Shown here: positions 35,719 to 47,742 of the stretch, piece after piece
Layout of the letters: each line of letters begins with the position of its first letter
How positions within the stretch are numbered: position 1 is the stretch's first letter
Assembly (NCBI GenBank): GCA_002179805.1
Contig: NAVB01000204.1
Location: 1-64,000 of the forward strand
Source: Acanthamoeba lenticulata
Lineage: Eukaryota > Discosea > Longamoebia > Acanthamoebidae
Length of the DNA: 64,000 bases
Direction: 5' to 3'
Program-made: the position numbers and the translations under genes
Notes under the pieces: generated by a model
What the model was told of the DNA's origin: nothing
What the model saw: only the letters and a program-made list of their open reading frames with translations
Databases searched by the model: none

Positions 35719-38314
35719 CTAGTCGTCGAGGGAGCGGAGGGCGTTGGTGCGGTCGATGTGGATGACGATATCAAACTGCTGCGGCAGAACGGCGTCGAAG
35801 TAGTGCGCGTGGATCTCCTTGCGCGGGTCCTTCACGTACTGCACGCCGATGGCCCGCTCGAGGCGACTCTCGCTCAGGAGCTTCACCAGCGTTCTGTCGA
35901 CTGTGTTTTGCGTCACGTGAGCGACATGAAGAAGAAGAAGAAGAAGATAATGATGAAGAGGCAGAAGCAGACGTACCGGACACTTCACGGCTGTTGCTGC
36001 GGAGGAGGACGGCAAAGTCCATCTCCTTCTCGGTCTCCATGGCCTCGGGCGCCTCCTCCGCTTCGGCTTCGGCCTGGTCGATGCCCTCGGCTTTGCTCTT
36101 GTCCTTCTGCTCGGCCGGCTTCTCCACCTTCGCTCTTTGGTCTGCTTCTGTCTCTGCAATCATGAAAGAAAAAATCATAAAATAAGCGCCAAGAAAATAT
36201 AAAGTTAGAATTCAAAAACAAAAACAAACAAAAACAAGAACAAAAAAAAAACAAAAACACGAACCCTTCATGCAGGCCTGGAGGGCGGCGTTGTGGAACA
36301 GGTGCTCGTAGGACTCGGGCCGCGCTTCGTTGATCTCCATCACCTGCGACGGCCTGGTGACGCGACACAAACGGTGTTAGCATTCCATTGATTACTATTT
36401 AAAAATAGAATAAGAAAATGGTAAATCATGAAGAGAGCTGACGTGCCTGCCCCACTTGGTGGCGGCCCGAACGGTGCCCTGGTAGGTGGAGAAGCCGATG
36501 TTGAAGCTCTTGTTGAGCCCAAACGTTTGCCGCACCTGCACTCACGCCAAAACGGCACACACATGCACTCGCACGTCAGAGGCTCCGCTCAAAAAGAGAG
36601 AGCGGGGACATGTGGAGGAGGAGACGCACGAGCTGGCCGATGTTGAACTCGCCCATCTCCGAGACCGACGTGGCGCGGGCGTCGCCCAAGTGCGAGTTGT
36701 GGGCCCACACCACTGCTCACCACAAAAGAATTAATACCAAACCATCAATTCTGATTTTTAAAAAAATAAATAAATAAAATGACAATAGGTAATAAATGCG
36801 TACCAGCTTTGGGCTTGGGCCAGCCGCGCTTCTCGTTGTAGTGCTGGAGGATCTCCTTGAGGGTGTTGTGCATGTGGCGATCGCGCAAGTTCCACGTGAC
36901 GGCGCCACCGGCGTAGGCCTTGCGGTAGTACTCCTCGGCGTCCTTCACCACGACGGCGTTCTCCTGCGCATAGAACAGCTCCTCGCCGGCCACCATGCCC
37001 CGGCTCTGCAGGTAGTCTGGACCTGTTTTGTTTAGTTTTTTAATTTTGTATTTTTGTGTCACAAAGACAAATGATATTAGCAAAATATTGTAAATGCCAA
37101 AATTGAAAAATTATTAAATAATAAGGGCAAGGGTGGGTGGGACCTTTACGGCAGATGTCGACCAGCATGTCGACGACGGCTTTCTCGCACGAGGGAGTGA
37201 TCCCGAGCATGACGGCCGCCGCGTAGTCGTGGGGCTCGTCCTTGAACTGGTCCAGCGTGCCGTACCTGCACAGCGCGAGCCCCACAGGCCCGAAAGACGT
37301 CAGAAGCTGCGGCCCGAAGCGAAGCGAAGCAAAGGGAGAGGCGCGCACCGACGGCGGGCCAGCTTGGCGGCCGGAGGGTCGACGTCGTCGAGGTAGTGAA
37401 TGACCTCGTGGGCTGACGTGAACATCGAATAGAGGTCCAGACCGTAGACGCCCACCCTGCATATGCACGCCGCCGATTATATTAATTATTTAATTAATCG
37501 CATAAACATAAAATAAAGATTTATATTTATATTTATATTTTTATTTTTTGTTACCTCTTCTTGGGGTCATCGATGCGGCTGTTGTGGTCTCGCAGCCACT
37601 CGGTGAAACCCACCATGATGTGGTTCCGCCACATCCTGTTGTGGAGCAGTTGGTCAAGAGCGTGGTGAGCGCCCTATGATCTCAGGCAACCCAGAGCCGA
37701 GCCTGAAGACGTACCAATTGGGGAAACGCTGGAAGTCGCTCAGAGCCTCGATGGCGCTGGCGTCCTCGTGCTCAGACCGCCCCAGCTGTGCATAGCTGCG
37801 TATGTGTGCGCGTTTGCGCGTGTGAGTGTGCAGTCCAGCCTGATGTCCAATCGAGCGTGAGACCACCAGGCGCGCACCGGTTGACGCGGTAGACGTCGGG
37901 CCAGTCGCCCTCGACTGCAACAAAGGAGAAGCCCTTCTCCTCGATCAGCCGCTTCGTGATCTCAGCTCTATGCATAGTGAGGGGCGAAGGGCAGCGCCAG
38001 TGAGCGCTGAACAGTGGTCGCGTAGTACAGCCATGAGGACGTGGTACCTCAGGTGGTAGAACTCTTCAGTGCCGTGTGTAGCCTCGCCAATCATGACCAC
38101 CTCGGCGTCGCCGACGGCCTCCAAGACGGACGCAAAGTTTTCTTTTGGCCGCGTCCCATAGCCAAGATCAGCTCCTCCCCAAAGCAAACAAAGAGGGCAC
38201 GAAGAGGGCTGTGCGATAAGTAGACGTAGTACCGCGCACGAGGTGAGACAAGGGAATGCCTGCGCTCGTGATGTCCTCAAATGGGAACTGCCTCGTATGG
38301 GCGGTGCGTGACAT
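35719..38314 (-). CDS. Erythromycin esterase homologue family protein
   Basis: A multi-exon member of the erythromycin-esterase-like family (EreA/EreB fold), common in bacteria. Start ATG 38314 ([20 protein letters not shown]). Exons carry [20 protein letters not shown] (the conserved GE-x-THG catalytic His region), [124 protein letters not shown] and [18 protein letters not shown] at the end. At least nine introns, many AT-rich, show a long eukaryotic history if it was acquired. The natural substrate in a protist is unknown; macrolide hydrolysis should not be assumed. Confidence 0.85.
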
Positions 38315-39428: not shown

Positions 39429-39461
39429 TCCCACAAGGCCGAGAGGGCGGGGGCAGTACAA
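39429..39461 (+). promoter_or_regulatory. snRNA-type promoter elements of the variant U1 gene
   Basis: TCCCACAA at 39429-39436 lies exactly 60 nt before the predicted RNA start, and GTACAA at 39456-39461 lies 33 nt before it. Both recur at identical distances upstream of the second U1 gene although the surrounding sequence differs, which is what a PSE-like element and a fixed start-proximal box would look like. Confidence 0.6.
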
Positions 39462-39488: not shown

Positions 39489-39662
39489 ATACGTACCTTG
39501 CTGGAAGAGTCTGCGATCAAGCAGGCGGCCTCTTTAGTTACTACCCCCTTCCATTGCACGTCGGTTGTGCGTGGTAGTGGCTACTGCTGCCCTACGGGGT
39601 GAGCAGACAGCATAATTTGTGGTCGAGTGGATGGTGCGCTCGTCGCCTGTCCACGCCCCCTC
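39489..39662 (+). ncRNA. U1: Variant U1 snRNA with altered 5' splice-site recognition sequence
   Basis: U1 RNA pairs with intron donors as part of the U1 snRNP. This copy begins ATACGTACCTTGC instead of the canonical ATACTTACCTGG. All core parts are retained: the stem-loop I GATCA in CTGCGATCAAGCAGG, the U1A-type loop ATTGCAC (39553-39559), the Sm site AATTTGTGG (39614-39622) and a 3' hairpin (GTGGATGG with its partner CCTGTCCAC). Relative to the other copy the 3' hairpin has one full compensatory change (G-C to A-U) plus two wobble changes, evidence of selection on structure. The 5' end would pair perfectly with AAG|GTACGTAT. The 3' end is approximate. Confidence 0.85.
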
Positions 39663-39980: not shown

Positions 39981-40154
39981 ATACTTACCTGGCTGGAAGG
40001 GCTTGCGATCAAGCAGGCGGGCTCTTTGGACGCTACCCCCTGCCATTGCACTAAGGCTGTGCGTGGTAGTGTCCAGCGCTGGCCCCAAGTGGGTGGGCGC
40101 ACAGCATAATTTGTGGTTGAGTGGGCAGAGCGCTCGTCGCCTGCCCACGCCCCC
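39981..40154 (+). ncRNA. U1: U1 snRNA, canonical 5' end
   Basis: Begins ATACTTACCTGG, the universal U1 5' end that pairs with CAG|GTAAGTAT donors. It has the stem-loop I GATCA (GCTTGCGATCAAGCAGG), the U1A-binding loop ATTGCAC (40045-40051), the Sm site AATTTGTGG (40108-40116) and a perfect 8-bp 3' hairpin (GTGGGCAG with CTGCCCAC). Predicted length is about 174 nt, slightly longer than the human RNA. It lies just downstream of the 3' end of the convergent NAXE gene. Confidence 0.92.
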
Positions 40155-41614: not shown

Positions 41615-43350
41615 TTAGCCTTGACCACAACGATGGTGATGGTGGCGGGTGATGATGGACGTACGATCGCCGCTGGGCGGGCCCTCGCCTCGGCTCTTGG
41701 ACTCGTTGAGCTCGCGGAGGACCTCGGGGCTGATGCCGTGGTGTTGCTGACGCTTGATGAGCTGCTTGATCTGTGCCTTCTGGTTGGGGGTCATGTCCTC
41801 CTTGTAGCGCTGCACAAAGACGAGTAGAGCCTGGTGCCACAGCACCGGCAGCATTCGCTCCTCCTTGATGAACCCGACAAAGTGGTCCACCAGCGCATCG
41901 ACCACCCGGTAGGGCAGCGAGTACTTCTTGTCCAGCAGAACGCGGATGAAAATGCTGTTGGCGCCAGAATACTCCATCTCGGCGATCTTGAGGAGGGCGA
42001 CGGCAGACTGGAGGGCCGGGATGGAGACCTTGACGATGATGCTCGCGATGATGGTGGCCTCGCGCAGGGTGCAGTCGCGGGCCTCGCACAGGGGCAAGAC
42101 GATGCCCTTGTAAAAGGCCGCCGGCTTGAAGACCGCCTTCTTGAGGGCCATGTACAAGTGGTAGTTGAGCTTCTTGTTGGAAGCCATGTCGTTCCGCACG
42201 TGGGGCAGGAGGATCAGGTTGTAGAATCGCTGCGCCATCTTGGCGTTCAGGTTCGACGCGAAGATCTTCGTCGCCGCCGCCACCGCGACCGGGCTCCAGT
42301 TATCTGTGCGCGTTGGGAAACCCATGTGAGCAGCTGCTGCTGTCAGTGAGGGCGTCGTCGGCGTAGGACGTACCGGGGTCGGTGAGGTAGAGGATCTCCT
42401 CCCAGTTGGTGAGGGTCGGCACCATCTTGAAGGCCTTGGGCAGCTTGCCCGACTTGTACCTGGACAACAGCCGGCCCACTCTGTACGTCATAAAGTAATG
42501 GCGCTCATGGTGAGTCACATACGTGTACGCGTTGTGTAGCGTGGCTTTGGGGCTGAGGAGTGGAGGACGCACCCGCGGTAGACCTCGACGACCTTGGGGT
42601 TGAGCCGCTGCAACACAGGCCCCTCATGTCCTGCATAAAGGGCCACGTAGAGCGTTAATTATAATAAAAAATGTAAAAATAAAATGAAATATAAAAAGAC
42701 CCAACGAGCGTACAACAACATACCCTCACGAGCCATCTCAAGCTCCTTCTCGCGAATCTTTTCCATGATGATGTCGGCCAGAGTCCTTCGCGGCTGCTCG
42801 GGAGCGCTCCACAGGGCCAGTGCCTTCTCGTCCTCGGGGTCGAGAACAACGTCCTCCACTTCATAGTCCTCCTCCTGTTCGTCATAGTCTTCCTCCTCGT
42901 CCGAGCTCGCGCTCATTTGCTTCTTGGGCGCACGAACGGCTCCCACCGCACGCTCCTTCCGTCTTTTGAAAAGAGCAAGTAAGCCATTTCGTTCCATTGT
43001 TGGCCATCCATCTGGAGAGGACCGTACTCCTCCTTGGCCTCCTCGATCTGCTGCTCCTTGGCAAGAGCTAGTGCTTTGCGGCTCAGGGTGTCGGACACGA
43101 AGCCCTTTTATAAAAAAGAAAATTTGGATGAGATGAAAATCAAGATTAAGATGAAAGTTCCCGGGCTTTGTGCAAGCCAAAGATTCACAGGTGTACGCAC
43201 CTCCTCCTCCTGCTTGCGGCTGTGTCGCGTGGCCTTCTCACGAGGCTTATTTCTCGACTGCGCAAATTGCTGTTTCTCTTCAGCCTTCGTGATTTGGGTG
43301 GCGAGCGGCTCATGCCGCTGCGTCGTCTTTGCTTTCCTCTCCTTGGGCAT
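41615..43350 (-). CDS. BYSL: Bystin (BYSL/Enp1), 40S ribosome biogenesis factor
   Basis: Bystin is needed for 18S rRNA processing and export of pre-40S particles. Start ATG 43350 ([20 protein letters not shown]). Exons continue with a basic N-terminus, [20 protein letters not shown], an acidic [17 protein letters not shown] stretch, [20 protein letters not shown], and then the bystin core: [80 protein letters not shown] and [20 protein letters not shown]. The end after [14 protein letters not shown] may include another short intron (GTACGT at about 41662), so the last 20 residues are uncertain. It is divergent from the lectin gene. Confidence 0.92.
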
Positions 43351-44014
43351 CTTGTGGGCCGTTTTTTCTTTCTCAAATGAAATCGGCTTTGGGGCTGTGG
43401 CGGGCTCGCAACCGAGATGGAATCAAAAAGGGACGGAAACAACGCAGACGAAGAAAGAAAGCGGAAGAGTATTTATGTTATTTATTTATGTACAATATTT
43501 TTTGTTTTGATTCTAGAATCCTTGCAACGAGCAAGCCGCAGGCTGCTTCTTTCTGTGGCCAACAGCTCTCTGTCTTGGCGCTGATTGCAGTACTCATTAT
43601 TCAACTGGTCCCACCCCACCTCGAACCCGTCTGGCCCGGGTTAACTGCTGTTGGTGCCAGTGCTGAAATTTCTGGTAAAGTACTGTGCAATGATAACATC
43701 AGCCAGCCACCCATTCCCCACGTCATCAGGGTGAAAGGGCTTTTTCTCAGCCAATTTTCAGGACCTCAGCAACCTGTCAAGGTGGAAATGCTGGCCGCTG
43801 AAGACATGGCCGTCATGGGTAAGCCGAGGGCGATATTCTCTGCGAATCTTCCGTGAGGCTTCTGCCACCATGGTGCTCTGCCAACTACACGCTCACATGG
43901 GGCAGCTACAAAAGGCTGATAAAGTGGCTCTTTACCATCATCAACAACAGCAGACGCGCTCTATCACCAATAACCTCACACAGCAGCTTAAGCGCGATCA
44001 AATAAACCAAGAGA
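43351..44014. other. Divergent intergenic region between bystin and the lectin
   Basis: No gene supported. The right end is a leader rich in CATCAACAAC-like words and ends GAATG at the lectin start. An AT-rich patch near 43480-43510 separates the two promoter halves. Confidence 0.5.
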
Positions 44015-45334
44015 ATGAAGTACCTCGCCCTTCTGGCCATCTTCGCGGCCTTCTTCTGCGTCTCGTCCTATGCCGACTGCAGCGTCAACATCAAGCAGAC
44101 CCTCGGCAGCGCCTGGCAGCAGGACGGCAAGAACCTGTCTCAGTGGAATGTGGCCATCACGGCCGGCTCGGAGGCCGTCAAGTCGCTCGAGCTCATCATC
44201 ACCGGCGCCACCATCAACCAGCTCTGGGAGCTGACAAACAAGTCCAACGGCGTCTTCGCCCTGCCCGACTACCGCCTCCAGAACGGCGGCATTCCGGCCG
44301 GCCAGACCCACCAGTTCGGCTACATCTGGCAGTCTGCTTCGCAGGCCACCATCGCCGTCTCCGCCATCAACTGCGGTGCCGCCGCCTCGGCTTCGCCTGC
44401 CGCGCCCTCGCCTTCGGCCTCTGCCGCCCCGGCCAGCCCGAGCGCCTCGCCCGCTGCGCCCTCGCCCTCGCCGTCGACCGTTGTCTCCACCCCTCAGCCC
44501 AGCTCGGCCCCTGCCGGCTGCAGCGTGAAGGTGGCCCAGACCACGCGCACGAGCCAGGACGGCTCGTGGACCACGGGTGACTTCAAGTTCCAGATCTACG
44601 ACCTCGTTTTCACCAACAACGGCAACCAGCCCGCCACCGGCATCCAGTTCAACGTCGCCCTCAACGCCAACCAGGAGATCTACCAGTTCTGGAACGTCGA
44701 GCGCCAGTCGGCCAACAGCAACGCCTTCAACGTGCCCACCTCGTGGGGTCCGCTCCAGGTCGGCGCCACCCTCGGCGCTGGCTACATCGTCCGCTCGCCC
44801 GTCTCGGCTGGCAACATCGCCGCCCCCGCTGTGACCATCACCTCCACCACTTGCTCTGGCTCGTCCACCGCCGCGCCCTCGCCTTCGGCCTCTCCCGCCC
44901 CGGCCAGCCCGAGCGCTTCGCCTGCCGCCCCCTCGGCCTCGCCCTCGGCTAACCCGACCATCGTCGCCACGCCGCAGCCCAGCTCGGCCAACGGCTGCAG
45001 CGCCAGCGTGAGCATCGTCGCCCGCTCGGCCGCCTCGGGTGGCGTGTGGACCGACAACGGCAACACGTTCCAGATCTTTGACATCTCGCTCCAGAACAAG
45101 GGCCAGCGCGCCATCAACGGCGGCGTGTTCACCTTTGGCCTCCAGTCCGGCGCCAGCATCAGTCAGTTCTGGGAGCTCAGCCGCCAGGGCTCCAGCAACG
45201 CCTTCAACGTGGCCTTTAACTACGGCGCGCTCCAGGCCGGCGCCAGCCAGGGCTCGGGCATCATCGTCCAGCTGGCCGGTTCGAGCCCCGCTGCTCTGCC
45301 CACCGTCACCCTCAGCTCGCTCGCTTGCCAGTAG
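44015..45334 (+). CDS. Luke-type cyst-wall lectin with three CBM49 domains
   Basis: An intronless secreted protein of 439 residues. Signal peptide MKYLALLAIFAAFFCVSSYA. Three cellulose-binding CBM49-like domains follow (about residues 21-124, 171-290, 328-439), each starting near a C-S-V/A-x-V/I core. Each has the aromatic positions W-x-x-x-G, QIYDLVFTNNGNQ or QIFDISLQNKGQ, and a Q-F-W-x-x/L block (QLWEL, QFWNVER, QFWELSR). Two Ala/Ser/Pro-rich spacers separate them (ASPAAPSPSASAAPASPSA type). This is the published architecture of Acanthamoeba Luke lectins, which bind cellulose and chitin in the cyst wall. Expression during encystation is therefore likely but is not shown by the sequence. The gene is strongly GC-biased. 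Confidence 0.9.
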   Translation: MKYLALLAIFAAFFCVSSYADCSVNIKQTLGSAWQQDGKNLSQWNVAITAGSEAVKSLELIITGATINQLWELTNKSNGVFALPDYRLQNGGIPAGQTHQFGYIWQSASQATIAVSAINCGAAASASPAAPSPSASAAPASPSASPAAPSPSPSTVVSTPQPSSAPAGCSVKVAQTTRTSQDGSWTTGDFKFQIYDLVFTNNGNQPATGIQFNVALNANQEIYQFWNVERQSANSNAFNVPTSWGPLQVGATLGAGYIVRSPVSAGNIAAPAVTITSTTCSGSSTAAPSPSASPAPASPSASPAAPSASPSANPTIVATPQPSSANGCSASVSIVARSAASGGVWTDNGNTFQIFDISLQNKGQRAINGGVFTFGLQSGASISQFWELSRQGSSNAFNVAFNYGALQAGASQGSGIIVQLAGSSPAALPTVTLSSLACQ

Positions 45335-45672
45335 ATATCTACTCGGCGCCAGTGATCTTTCCTTCCATACTCGACTCCAGGAGATATTCTCCTCACCTCT
45401 GCAAAAAACAAATACAATTTTTAATATATATCTTTTATCTATCATCTCGCCAAAGTACTTCAGGCACCCTCCGTGATGGCGATGATAATGACAATCACCA
45501 ACGAAGTGGAAAGCAGTTGACTGCCAATTCAAGCTTTTTACATTTGCCACCTTTTTGATTGGTCGATCCACCACCGGCGACTCTTGGCGTGAATGTTGAT
45601 TCGAATGCTCGTCCCTCATCACTCGCGTGCCTGTGCACAGGGAGTGTGTCACCAACTTCGTGTGCCACTTCA
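45335..45672. other. Convergent intergenic region
   Basis: Between the 3' ends of the lectin and the next gene. It includes an AT-rich stretch near 45410-45440. Nothing else supported. Confidence 0.5.
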
Positions 45673-47742
45673 CTAGCTGGGGCCTGGGTTGGCTGCTCGA
45701 AGCTTGCCGACTACCTCGCGCTCTAATCGGTTCAGTTCCTCCGTAAGCGATTTCACCTGTGCTCGCAGCTCCTTCAACTCTTCGCTCTGCTCTCGTTCAC
45801 ATCGTCGCTTGGCCTGTGGCTCCTCCTCCTCGTCCTCCTCGTTGTTTTCTCCTCGCTCGCCGTCGTCCTCCTCGGTTCGTCGGCGCTTGACGCCCGGCTC
45901 GGTGGCCACCAGGGCCGCGCCCGCCTTGTCGTCGTTCATGGGATGTGTCAATTGGACCTCGCGGTGCACGCGTCGGCCGTCGTCGGGGAAAACGGGGCCC
46001 TCCTTGACCGCGCCGGTTGCCGTCGCCGCCGCCGAGACCGGGGCCGTGTGCAGGCATCCGATGTTGCGCTCGCGCCCGTGGGGCATGAGCCCCGCGAGCG
46101 AGAGGGCGACCACTTCGAGCTTGACCGGGGCGATCAGCGCGGGCTCGCCGAGGAACTCGACCCAGATGCCGCATCGTTCCCGCAGCTCACACTGCAGCTC
46201 GGCCGCCGTCCACGTCGTCGCCGTGGCCGCCGCCGCAGACGCCTCGGGCCAGCCCCAGACGTTCCAGTGGTGGTTGAGCGCCGCCTGGACCTCGAATCGA
46301 TAGCGGCGCGGCTCGGGCTCCGCGGCTTGAACGGCGGCCGTGGGCACGAAGAGGGCGTTGAGGGCGCGGGCCAGCTGGGCTTGGCACATGTCGACGCCCT
46401 GCAAGAGGCATGGTCGGCTGAGCAGGTCGGCCGCGCTGGACAAACCGGCGGTCGTGCCGTTCTCCCACAGGACCTCGCGTCGCGAGGACCCGGCGACGTG
46501 CTTGGCGACAAGGTCGCGCAGCTTGTTGTAGGCCGCGCTGCCCTCGACCATGCGCAGCGCCGGGCGCGCGCCGATCTCGCGGCAAAACTCGTCGTACATG
46601 CGCACGACCTGTGCGACAAAGGCCAGCTTCTCCGCGGCGAGGAAGCCCACGAGGTCGTCCACCAGGCCAGTCTTGGTGTTGTTCCCCCGCTTGGAGGTCG
46701 TGGGCAGGCCCGGCTCGGTCTTCACGGCGACGCCCGGCTCGAGCTTGACCGAGGCCGGCCTGCCCAGCTTGCCGCCAGTTCCGCTGGCGCTGGCGCTGAC
46801 GCTGGCGCCTGGCCGAGCCTCTGCGCGGTCAGAGAGGGCCTTCCACGCGCTCGAGCGCAGGAGGTCAATGGTGGTGATCATGACGGTCTTGCTGGCGGCG
46901 TCGACGCCGCTCGAAGAGGCCGCGGCAGCGGCCATGACGGCGCGGTAGGTCGCGATGGCGGCGGCGGCCGTGGCATTGGAGACGGTCCGCGCGTAGAAGG
47001 TGAGGCGGGCCATGAGGGTGAGCCGCGTGAACCGCTCGCGCATCTGGTGGGCCATGGCCTCGCTGTTGACCATGACCTCGAGCGGGAAGCGGCAGCCCGT
47101 CGTGAGGGCCGGCACGCACGAGTTGTAGAAGGTGATGCCCAGTTTGTCCAGCGGCAGTGGATCCACCACGCGCCAGCTCACCTTGGCCACGGGCAGCGGC
47201 CGCACGTTGGTGGGCTTCAGGGCCGAGAACTCGGCCGCGGGCAGCACGCCCTCGAGTGCGGCCAATGCCATGCGGTGGACCGCGGGCGGATCAAACTCGG
47301 ACATGAGGCTCACTTTGTAAAACTCGCCCACGAGCTTCACGAGCCTGGTGTCGGGCACGTTCGACGATCCGTCGCTGTGACGTACGACGGCCAACGGCGG
47401 CGCATAGTAAAAGCGGCGGTCGTTTGGTGGTGCAAAGGCGTTGTAGACACAGGCAAACACTTCACATCGATAGCCCAGGTAGTCGAAGACGGCCACGGCT
47501 GTGGCCAGGAGGATGACACTCGCTGGAATTTGCGCCTGTGTAGCGGTGCTGTTGCTGTTTGTTGCCACGTCGAGAAGTGGCATTTCTCCCGAAGTGCGAG
47601 TTGTAGGAGCAGTGCCACTACTACTCGGCATAAGATGGCGGCCTTGGTTTGTTGTCGATCCACTTGCTCTTCCCTCTAGAGCCTCGTCCTCGTATCGGCT
47701 GGCCTGACCAAAGGTGTCGGTTGTAGGGGAAGAATCTGCCAT
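45673..47742 (-). CDS. Nuclear-type acidic protein with leucine-zipper-like tail, unknown function
   Basis: An uninterrupted frame of 689 residues from ATG 47742 (MADSSPTTDTFGQASRYEDE). The N-terminal ~400 residues look globular, with GYRCEVFACVYNAFAPPNDR and FPLEVMVNSEAMAHQMRERF. In the middle are two SUMO-type consensus sites in a row, VKLEPG and VKTEPG. A second globular part has FRFEVQ-like RYRFEVQAALNHHWNVWGWP and CGIWVEFLGEPALIAPVKLE. The tail has the basic signal VKRRRTEEDD, an acidic run, QAKRRCE, and then a heptad-like coiled coil, LKELRAQVKSLTEELNRLE. NLS, SUMO sites and coiled coil suggest a chromatin or transcription protein; no DNA-binding fold was recognised. Confidence 0.7.
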   Translation of the reverse strand: MADSSPTTDTFGQASRYEDEALEGRASGSTTNQGRHLMPSSSGTAPTTRTSGEMPLLDVATNSNSTATQAQIPASVILLATAVAVFDYLGYRCEVFACVYNAFAPPNDRRFYYAPPLAVVRHSDGSSNVPDTRLVKLVGEFYKVSLMSEFDPPAVHRMALAALEGVLPAAEFSALKPTNVRPLPVAKVSWRVVDPLPLDKLGITFYNSCVPALTTGCRFPLEVMVNSEAMAHQMRERFTRLTLMARLTFYARTVSNATAAAAIATYRAVMAAAAASSSGVDAASKTVMITTIDLLRSSAWKALSDRAEARPGASVSASASGTGGKLGRPASVKLEPGVAVKTEPGLPTTSKRGNNTKTGLVDDLVGFLAAEKLAFVAQVVRMYDEFCREIGARPALRMVEGSAAYNKLRDLVAKHVAGSSRREVLWENGTTAGLSSAADLLSRPCLLQGVDMCQAQLARALNALFVPTAAVQAAEPEPRRYRFEVQAALNHHWNVWGWPEASAAAATATTWTAAELQCELRERCGIWVEFLGEPALIAPVKLEVVALSLAGLMPHGRERNIGCLHTAPVSAAATATGAVKEGPVFPDDGRRVHREVQLTHPMNDDKAGAALVATEPGVKRRRTEEDDGERGENNEEDEEEEPQAKRRCEREQSEELKELRAQVKSLTEELNRLEREVVGKLRAANPGPS

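Follow-up and report, generated by a model that had tools for sequence, protein, structure and literature searches.

In fungi, a switch of the +4 base of the 5' splice site (donor) from A to U has been linked to the loss of METTL16 (PMC10581693). In the accessible text of that survey of 240 fungal genomes, position 5 of U1 snRNA is named as a possible compensator for a change at +4 and was found to be invariant; +4 switches occurred without change in U1 or U6, and the sequence ACUUACC was invariant wherever U1 was found (PMC10581693). A recent review, in the sections available, favours U6 as the decider of the +4 base (PMC11732430). As far as the accessible accounts go, planarian U1 paralogues, U1C1 and U1C2, carry a changed base in the recognition motif and exist beside canonical U1 (PMC6312358), and the human vU1 genes are U1-like, with bases changed in protein- or donor-binding regions (PMC5159530).

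Acanthamoeba castellanii is reported to have 6.2 introns per gene, and the available intron and splice-site text of its genome paper gives neither a donor consensus nor a U1 (PMC4053784). U11, U6atac and U12 have been reported from the same species, according to the accessible part of that study (PMC2846911). In the Acanthamoeba lenticulata DNA analysed here, a stretch of 64,000 nucleotides (the window) that forms part of contig C185, a U1 gene with an altered 5' end lies beside a canonical one, and the altered base is complementary to the base that prevails at +4 of the donors.

U1 genes in the window and across the genome

Both U1 matches in the window exceed the RF00003 cut-off of 69.5 bits (cmscan; Table 1), and U1 was the sole family matched when the window was scanned against all of Rfam. 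The variant gene, aligned over model positions 1-166, has G rather than U at position 5, as had been predicted from the letters. The span originally predicted, 39489..39662, has the right start, but Rfam ends the RNA at 39655. The canonical gene begins 0.3 kb downstream.

Table 1. Features of the window, with strand and supporting evidence
Feature	Position	Strand	Evidence
Variant U1 snRNA gene, 5' end ATACGTACCTTG	39489..39655	+	RF00003, 75.5 bits; identical RNA body on C298 and C818, a diverged one on C158
U1 position 5 = G (canonical: U), complementary to +4C	39493..39493	+	sequence
U1 position 11 = U (canonical: G), would pair with -3A; donors show no such preference	39499..39499	+	
U1A-type loop sequence ATTGCAC	39553..39559	+	sequence
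Promoter box TCCCACAA, 60 nt upstream of variant U1	39429..39436	+	sequence
Second upstream box GTACAA, at -33 of variant U1	39456..39461	+	sequence
Canonical U1 snRNA gene, 5' end ATACTTACCTGG	39981..40149	+	RF00003, 100.6 bits; TCCCATAA at -60, GTACAA at -33
Erythromycin-esterase-family (PF05139) gene	35901..38232	-	12 protein-supported donors: +4C 10, A 2
Bystin gene	42304..43027	-	4 protein-supported donors: +4C 3, +4T 1

The canonical and variant RNAs of C185 differ at 33 columns, and the stem-loops are kept with compensatory change. Standard pairing is retained at 40 of the 46 model pairs, unchanged ones included (32 unchanged, five kept through two-sided and three through one-sided changes), and the other six are non-standard or gapped. 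Among the changes is the G-C to A-U replacement in the 3' hairpin that had been noticed at the outset, now located at columns 146/165. The Sm site, U1A loop and stem-loop I had been described as intact, and the corresponding putative protein-binding sequences are present: a Sm-like site, ATAATTTGTGG, the U1A-type ATTGCAC, and a stem-loop I loop reading GATCAAGCAG. Single-sequence folding was of little use, with z values of -0.4 for the variant, -0.8 for the canonical RNA and -2.6 for the variant copy on contig C158.

The search of the genome (48.5 Mb in 1825 contigs) revealed at least seven U1 genes, a lower bound, as 41 of 880 first-look candidates were scored. All seven lie above the curated Rfam cut-off, three being canonical (C185, C505 and C968) and four variant (C185, C298, C818 and C158), the other variant copies scoring 75.5, 75.5 and 75.1 bits over the whole model. 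The variant RNA sequence is identical in C185, C298 and C818 and stands in different flanks, with the likeness stopping about 200 nt around the gene. The C158 copy (L007, C158:47796-47963) shows 19 differences from it over 170 columns, with two base pairs kept by two-sided compensation, and it has AATTTATGG for AATTTGTGG, a G-to-A change at the Sm-like site, yet its ATACGTACCTTG 5' end is unchanged. A genome in which all other U1 copies are canonical was therefore not what was found, four of the seven listed being variant. A pseudogene family was rejected, as no degraded U1 copies were present among the matches listed at E<=1. A search for relatives elsewhere gave zero matches in viral contigs and genome contigs, collections without eukaryote genomes as such.

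Over a stretch of 3 kb, the similarity between C505 and C968 is 96.8%, so that the two may be a haplotype pair. Single-copy-type genes that are doubled at near-identical scores (C505/C968, C73/C729 and C1602/C10) suggest that two haplotypes were assembled apart.

The letters of the dictyostelid DUSE promoter box resemble TTCCCATAA. In the accessible account of these elements, many small-RNA genes, spliceosomal RNAs among them, have the box some 60 nt upstream, and those Class I RNA genes that lack it were unexpressed (PMC7919456). In A. lenticulata, TCCCAYAA is found at -60 to -63 in all seven U1 genes, variant and canonical, and TCCCACAA at -64/-65 in all six U6 genes; the background frequency of CCCAYAA in the sampled DNA is about 0.011 per 100 nt. 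A second box at about -33 reads GTACAA in four of the U1 genes, with a related sequence in the remaining three. Since the promoter box stands at the right distance in seven of seven copies, the variant U1 genes look equipped for transcription, and presumably they are transcribed.

Base preference at donor position +4

Gene models were trained on 332,913 bases, taken from the window plus 42 other loci that include near-duplicates, with only the GT and AG intron ends imposed. A flat-start model gave 607 introns, whose donors had G at -1 (0.58), A at +3 (0.51), C at +4 (0.67), G at +5 (0.57) and T at +6 (0.43). The frequency of +4C was already 0.44 in the first pass, with zero donor information (291 introns), and the donor model converged on it both from a start without preference (0.64) and from a CAG/GTAAGT start (0.65). 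With the decoy first dinucleotides GA, TG, CT and GC, composition drift was seen (largest single frequency 0.48) and no pattern of G at -1 and +5 emerged. Read on the opposite strand, the 5' end of the variant U1 (window 39501-39489, - strand) matches the donor consensus perfectly, and the gene model falsely called it as a donor.

A further model was kept blind to +4, this position being excluded and the U1 5' ends masked. It yielded 535 introns with +4C at 0.484; among its 350 introns of 45-150 nt, a set that includes false calls, C stood at 0.571 and A at 0.151. The counts were C 42, A 12, T 12 and G 12 in the window (n=78), and C 158, A 41, T 40 and G 33 outside it (n=272). C exceeded A in 36 of 40 loci and A exceeded C in one. 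In the 118 strong donors of this set, those with G at both -1 and +5, the +4 base was C in 78, T in 24, G in nine and A in seven, against 0.263 C and 0.217 A at every site of that pattern in the same DNA, donors included (n=2597; Fisher tests on rounded background fractions gave p 1.5e-18 for the C excess and 7.6e-6 for A). The background at +4 after GT is 0.279 C and 0.376 G. A majority of +4A, which would have spoken against the original prediction, was looked for in this 333 kb sample and is absent.

Several donors had been predicted to read exactly GTACGT, and this proved to be the commonest donor hexamer of the +4-blind set (36 of 350), with GTAAGT found once. Of all such hexamers in the sampled DNA, 40 of 159 GTACGT and 3 of 53 GTAAGT were called as donors; for the longer words the numbers are small (3 of 8 for AGGTACGT, 2 of 10 for AGGTAAGT). 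Genome-wide, the 8-mer AGGTACGT occurs 1412 times, barely more than its reversed control (1338), a word that is common for reasons of its own. The word normally typical of strong donors, AGGTAAGT, is not enriched, occurring 598 times and so less often than its reversed control (909).

Three genes, two in the window and one in locus L047, were spliced-aligned with orthologous proteins, with no donor preference beyond GT. The reference proteins come from relatives and are probably transcript-derived, as many of them are single open reading frames filling contigs of about 1.4-1.8 kb. Donors were counted by hand where at least three reference proteins supported each; those with fewer were excluded (window 43200, 43188, 42946, 42729, 36395 and 36260; L047 3133 and 5237). 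The 24 counted donors had C at +4 in 18, A in four, T in one and G in one (binomial p 2.3e-6 for C against the 0.279 background), the L047 gene contributing eight (C 5, A 2, G 1). The four +4A donors were GTAACA twice, GTCAGC and GTGATG, with no GTAAGT among them. The first reading of the window, 26 donors with 21 +4C and one A, was right in direction and somewhat optimistic.

The bystin of the window has as its best match a partial bystin of A. castellanii Neff (90% identity over 74% of the query), followed by Balamuthia bystin at 63%. The 5S rRNA agrees with that of A. castellanii; both results place the DNA in Acanthamoeba, and the 90% bystin identity suggests a strain other than Neff. Comparisons with solved structures served as by-eye checks of junctions, no donor being counted from them, and exposed model errors such as an ABC transporter model without residues at one junction. 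A predicted secreted protein (window 43133-45723, + strand) has repeated domains that by eye resemble the cellulose-binding modules of amoebozoan coat proteins.

Fit between the U1 forms and the donors

Duplex energies were better with the variant U1 for 99 of the 118 strong donors (means -8.7 vs -5.8 kcal/mol), compared with 1310 of the 2597 matched sites. In the full set of 350 donors, 268 favoured the variant and 78 the canonical form, and for 3000 random GT sites the figures were 2090 and 750; this second comparison says little because the variant is in any case the better binder of GC-rich DNA. The whole 5' end had been thought complementary to AAG-type donors. Position 5 bears this out, G5 facing the prevailing +4C, but the U at position 11 does not, as the donors prefer C over A at -3 (0.37 vs 0.21; n=533, model blind to -3). 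Because U at position 11 mismatches this -3C preference, the variant's fit to the donors rests on position 5.

No association was found in the donors between A or C at -3 and C or A at +4 (Fisher p=0.23), nor between +4 and -3, -2, -1 or +6 (p 0.20, 0.48, 0.86 and 0.29). The association of +4 with +3 is weak (p 0.017) and that with +5 strong (p 1.4e-9), the latter arising from +4A with +5A in donors that may be misplaced. A division of the donors into two classes, one for each U1 form, was considered and rejected, as the position-pair statistics reveal no second class.

U6, METTL16 and other spliceosomal RNAs

The adenosine of the U6 ACAGAGA sequence that faces +4 in spliceosome structures cannot form a Watson-Crick pair with C. 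ACAGAGA is kept in all six U6 genes above cut-off, and a compensating change in U6 was accordingly rejected. Between U6 and the variant U1, Watson-Crick pairing with +4C is possible for the variant U1 only. Thus U1 is the simplest source of the +4C preference, as U6 keeps its ACAGAGA with an A facing +4 that is unable to form a Watson-Crick pair with C. A profile search for the METTL16 domain (PF05971) gave zero matches genome-wide, with the comparison domains MT-A70 (6), SNRNP27 (2) and zf-U1 (3) found in this same, intron-bearing genome.

One U6 copy (L013, C354:15790-15901) has CCCTCACAGAGA in place of NATACAGAGA just upstream of ACAGAGA. The copy on C354 also has changes near its 3' part (ATGTACAATCG), and its promoter box is still at -64. 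U2 snRNA is represented by 22 matches above cut-off (C597, C161, C449, C1043, C1601 and others) in at least two length groups, of about 218 and 207 nt, which differ in their upstream sequences; GTAGTA is kept in all 12 of the U2 genes examined (L017-L028).

Competing explanations

Judged from sequence, the variant locus is probably a functional U1 paralogue that is co-adapted with +4C donors. The original prediction of a U1 isoform that co-evolved with non-standard donors is supported on both counts, by the share of variant genes among the U1 copies and by the dominance of +4C across 333 kb. The variant U1 would be transcribed and then assembled into a U1 snRNP, and it would recognise GTNCG donors through a G5:C+4 pair and the +4T minority through a G5.U+4 wobble, with canonical U1 retained for donors of other kinds or for further U1 functions. 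The likely order of events would be the loss of METTL16, relaxing the usual +4A preference, and then a joint shift of a duplicated U1 carrying G5 and of the donors, +4A having been stripped of U6 support and +4C being supported by U1. That the duplicated G5 U1 took over most introns after METTL16 loss and drew the donors to +4C, U1 rather than U6 fixing the +4 base, is a serious but still tentative proposal.

The match between G5 and +4C might instead be coincidental, the variant genes being little or never transcribed, or regulatory isoforms, and canonical U1 reading +4C despite mismatching it at position 5. In many eukaryotes an unchanging U1 copes with variation at +4, as the accessible text on the surveyed fungi illustrates with its unvarying ACUUACC (PMC10581693), and Rfam scores are higher for the canonical copies. 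This reading is rather unlikely, as the same 5' end and promoter box recur in four of the seven listed copies, the C158 gene retains that end despite its divergence, and, of the three bases that could replace U at position 5, G is the complement of the donors' C. The retention of both U1 forms side by side, with promoter elements alike, and the existence of a +4A minority (4 of 24 protein-guided and 7 of 118 strong donors) could also point to two-channel splicing, in which each form has its own donors and the ratio of the forms regulates splicing. Such an arrangement is very doubtful in view of the absent covariation of -3 and +4 (p=0.23) and of the +4A donors themselves, which are not GTAAGT when placed by proteins and almost never so in the ab initio set (1 of 350). 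Finally, the introns are all either ab initio or homology-guided, and the ab initio sets contain false ones, of which the U1 5'-end antisense is an example, yet it is scarcely credible that the +4C excess is a gene-modelling artefact in GC-rich DNA: the +4-blind and canonical-start models concur, C is less common than G in the background after GT, and the protein-guided donors agree with the +4-blind run, in which the U1 5' ends were masked.

Comparison with known systems

Searches of an open-access library brought up no report of this U1 or, for Acanthamoeba, of donors with +4C; the original spliceosomal-RNA screens are among the subscription papers outside it, so that priority is not established. 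U1 variants with altered 5' ends are already known, and none in the accessible parts of the literature compared matches the prevailing donor consensus of its own genome. If the interpretation of a co-adapted U1 is true, Acanthamoeba offers a direct test of which pairing, that of U1 or that of U6, determines the +4 base, and introns in its genome will be misplaced by gene finders that were trained on GTAAGT donors.

With canonical U1 (RF00003) the variant shares a whole-length match, the four-helix core and 3' hairpin, the U1A loop and the Sm-like site; it differs in its donor-pairing end, where positions 5 and 11 are G and U instead of U and G. U11 snRNA (RF00548) is likewise a donor-pairing snRNA, but the variant matches U1 and not U11; a minor-spliceosome origin was rejected, the genome's single U11 above cut-off being a separate gene on C1732. 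Fritillaria borealis likewise deviates from the usual donor throughout its genome; the 5' ends of its two U1 versions are identical, and a divergent U1 was not its route according to the authors, in the text available (PMC13326754).

The planarian variants have a changed donor-pairing base beside canonical copies, as is found on C185, where both kinds occur. In the accessible descriptions, no genome-wide donor shift matching either the planarian or the human variants is given (PMC6312358, PMC5159530). The planarian change is C to U, faces -1, is stem-cell enriched and has no matching donor consensus described, whereas the Acanthamoeba change is at position 5, faces +4 and fits the prevailing donors (PMC6312358). 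Human vU1 genes are proposed, in the text at hand, to act on select genes, in contrast to a change that fits the commonest donor type (PMC5159530). The fungal +4 switch shares with Acanthamoeba a preference away from A and, as the METTL16 domain was not found in the profile search of this genome, possibly its setting; however, the U1 and U6 pairing sequences are invariant in the accessible fungal account, while in Acanthamoeba position 5 of U1 is changed and the donor base is C (PMC10581693).
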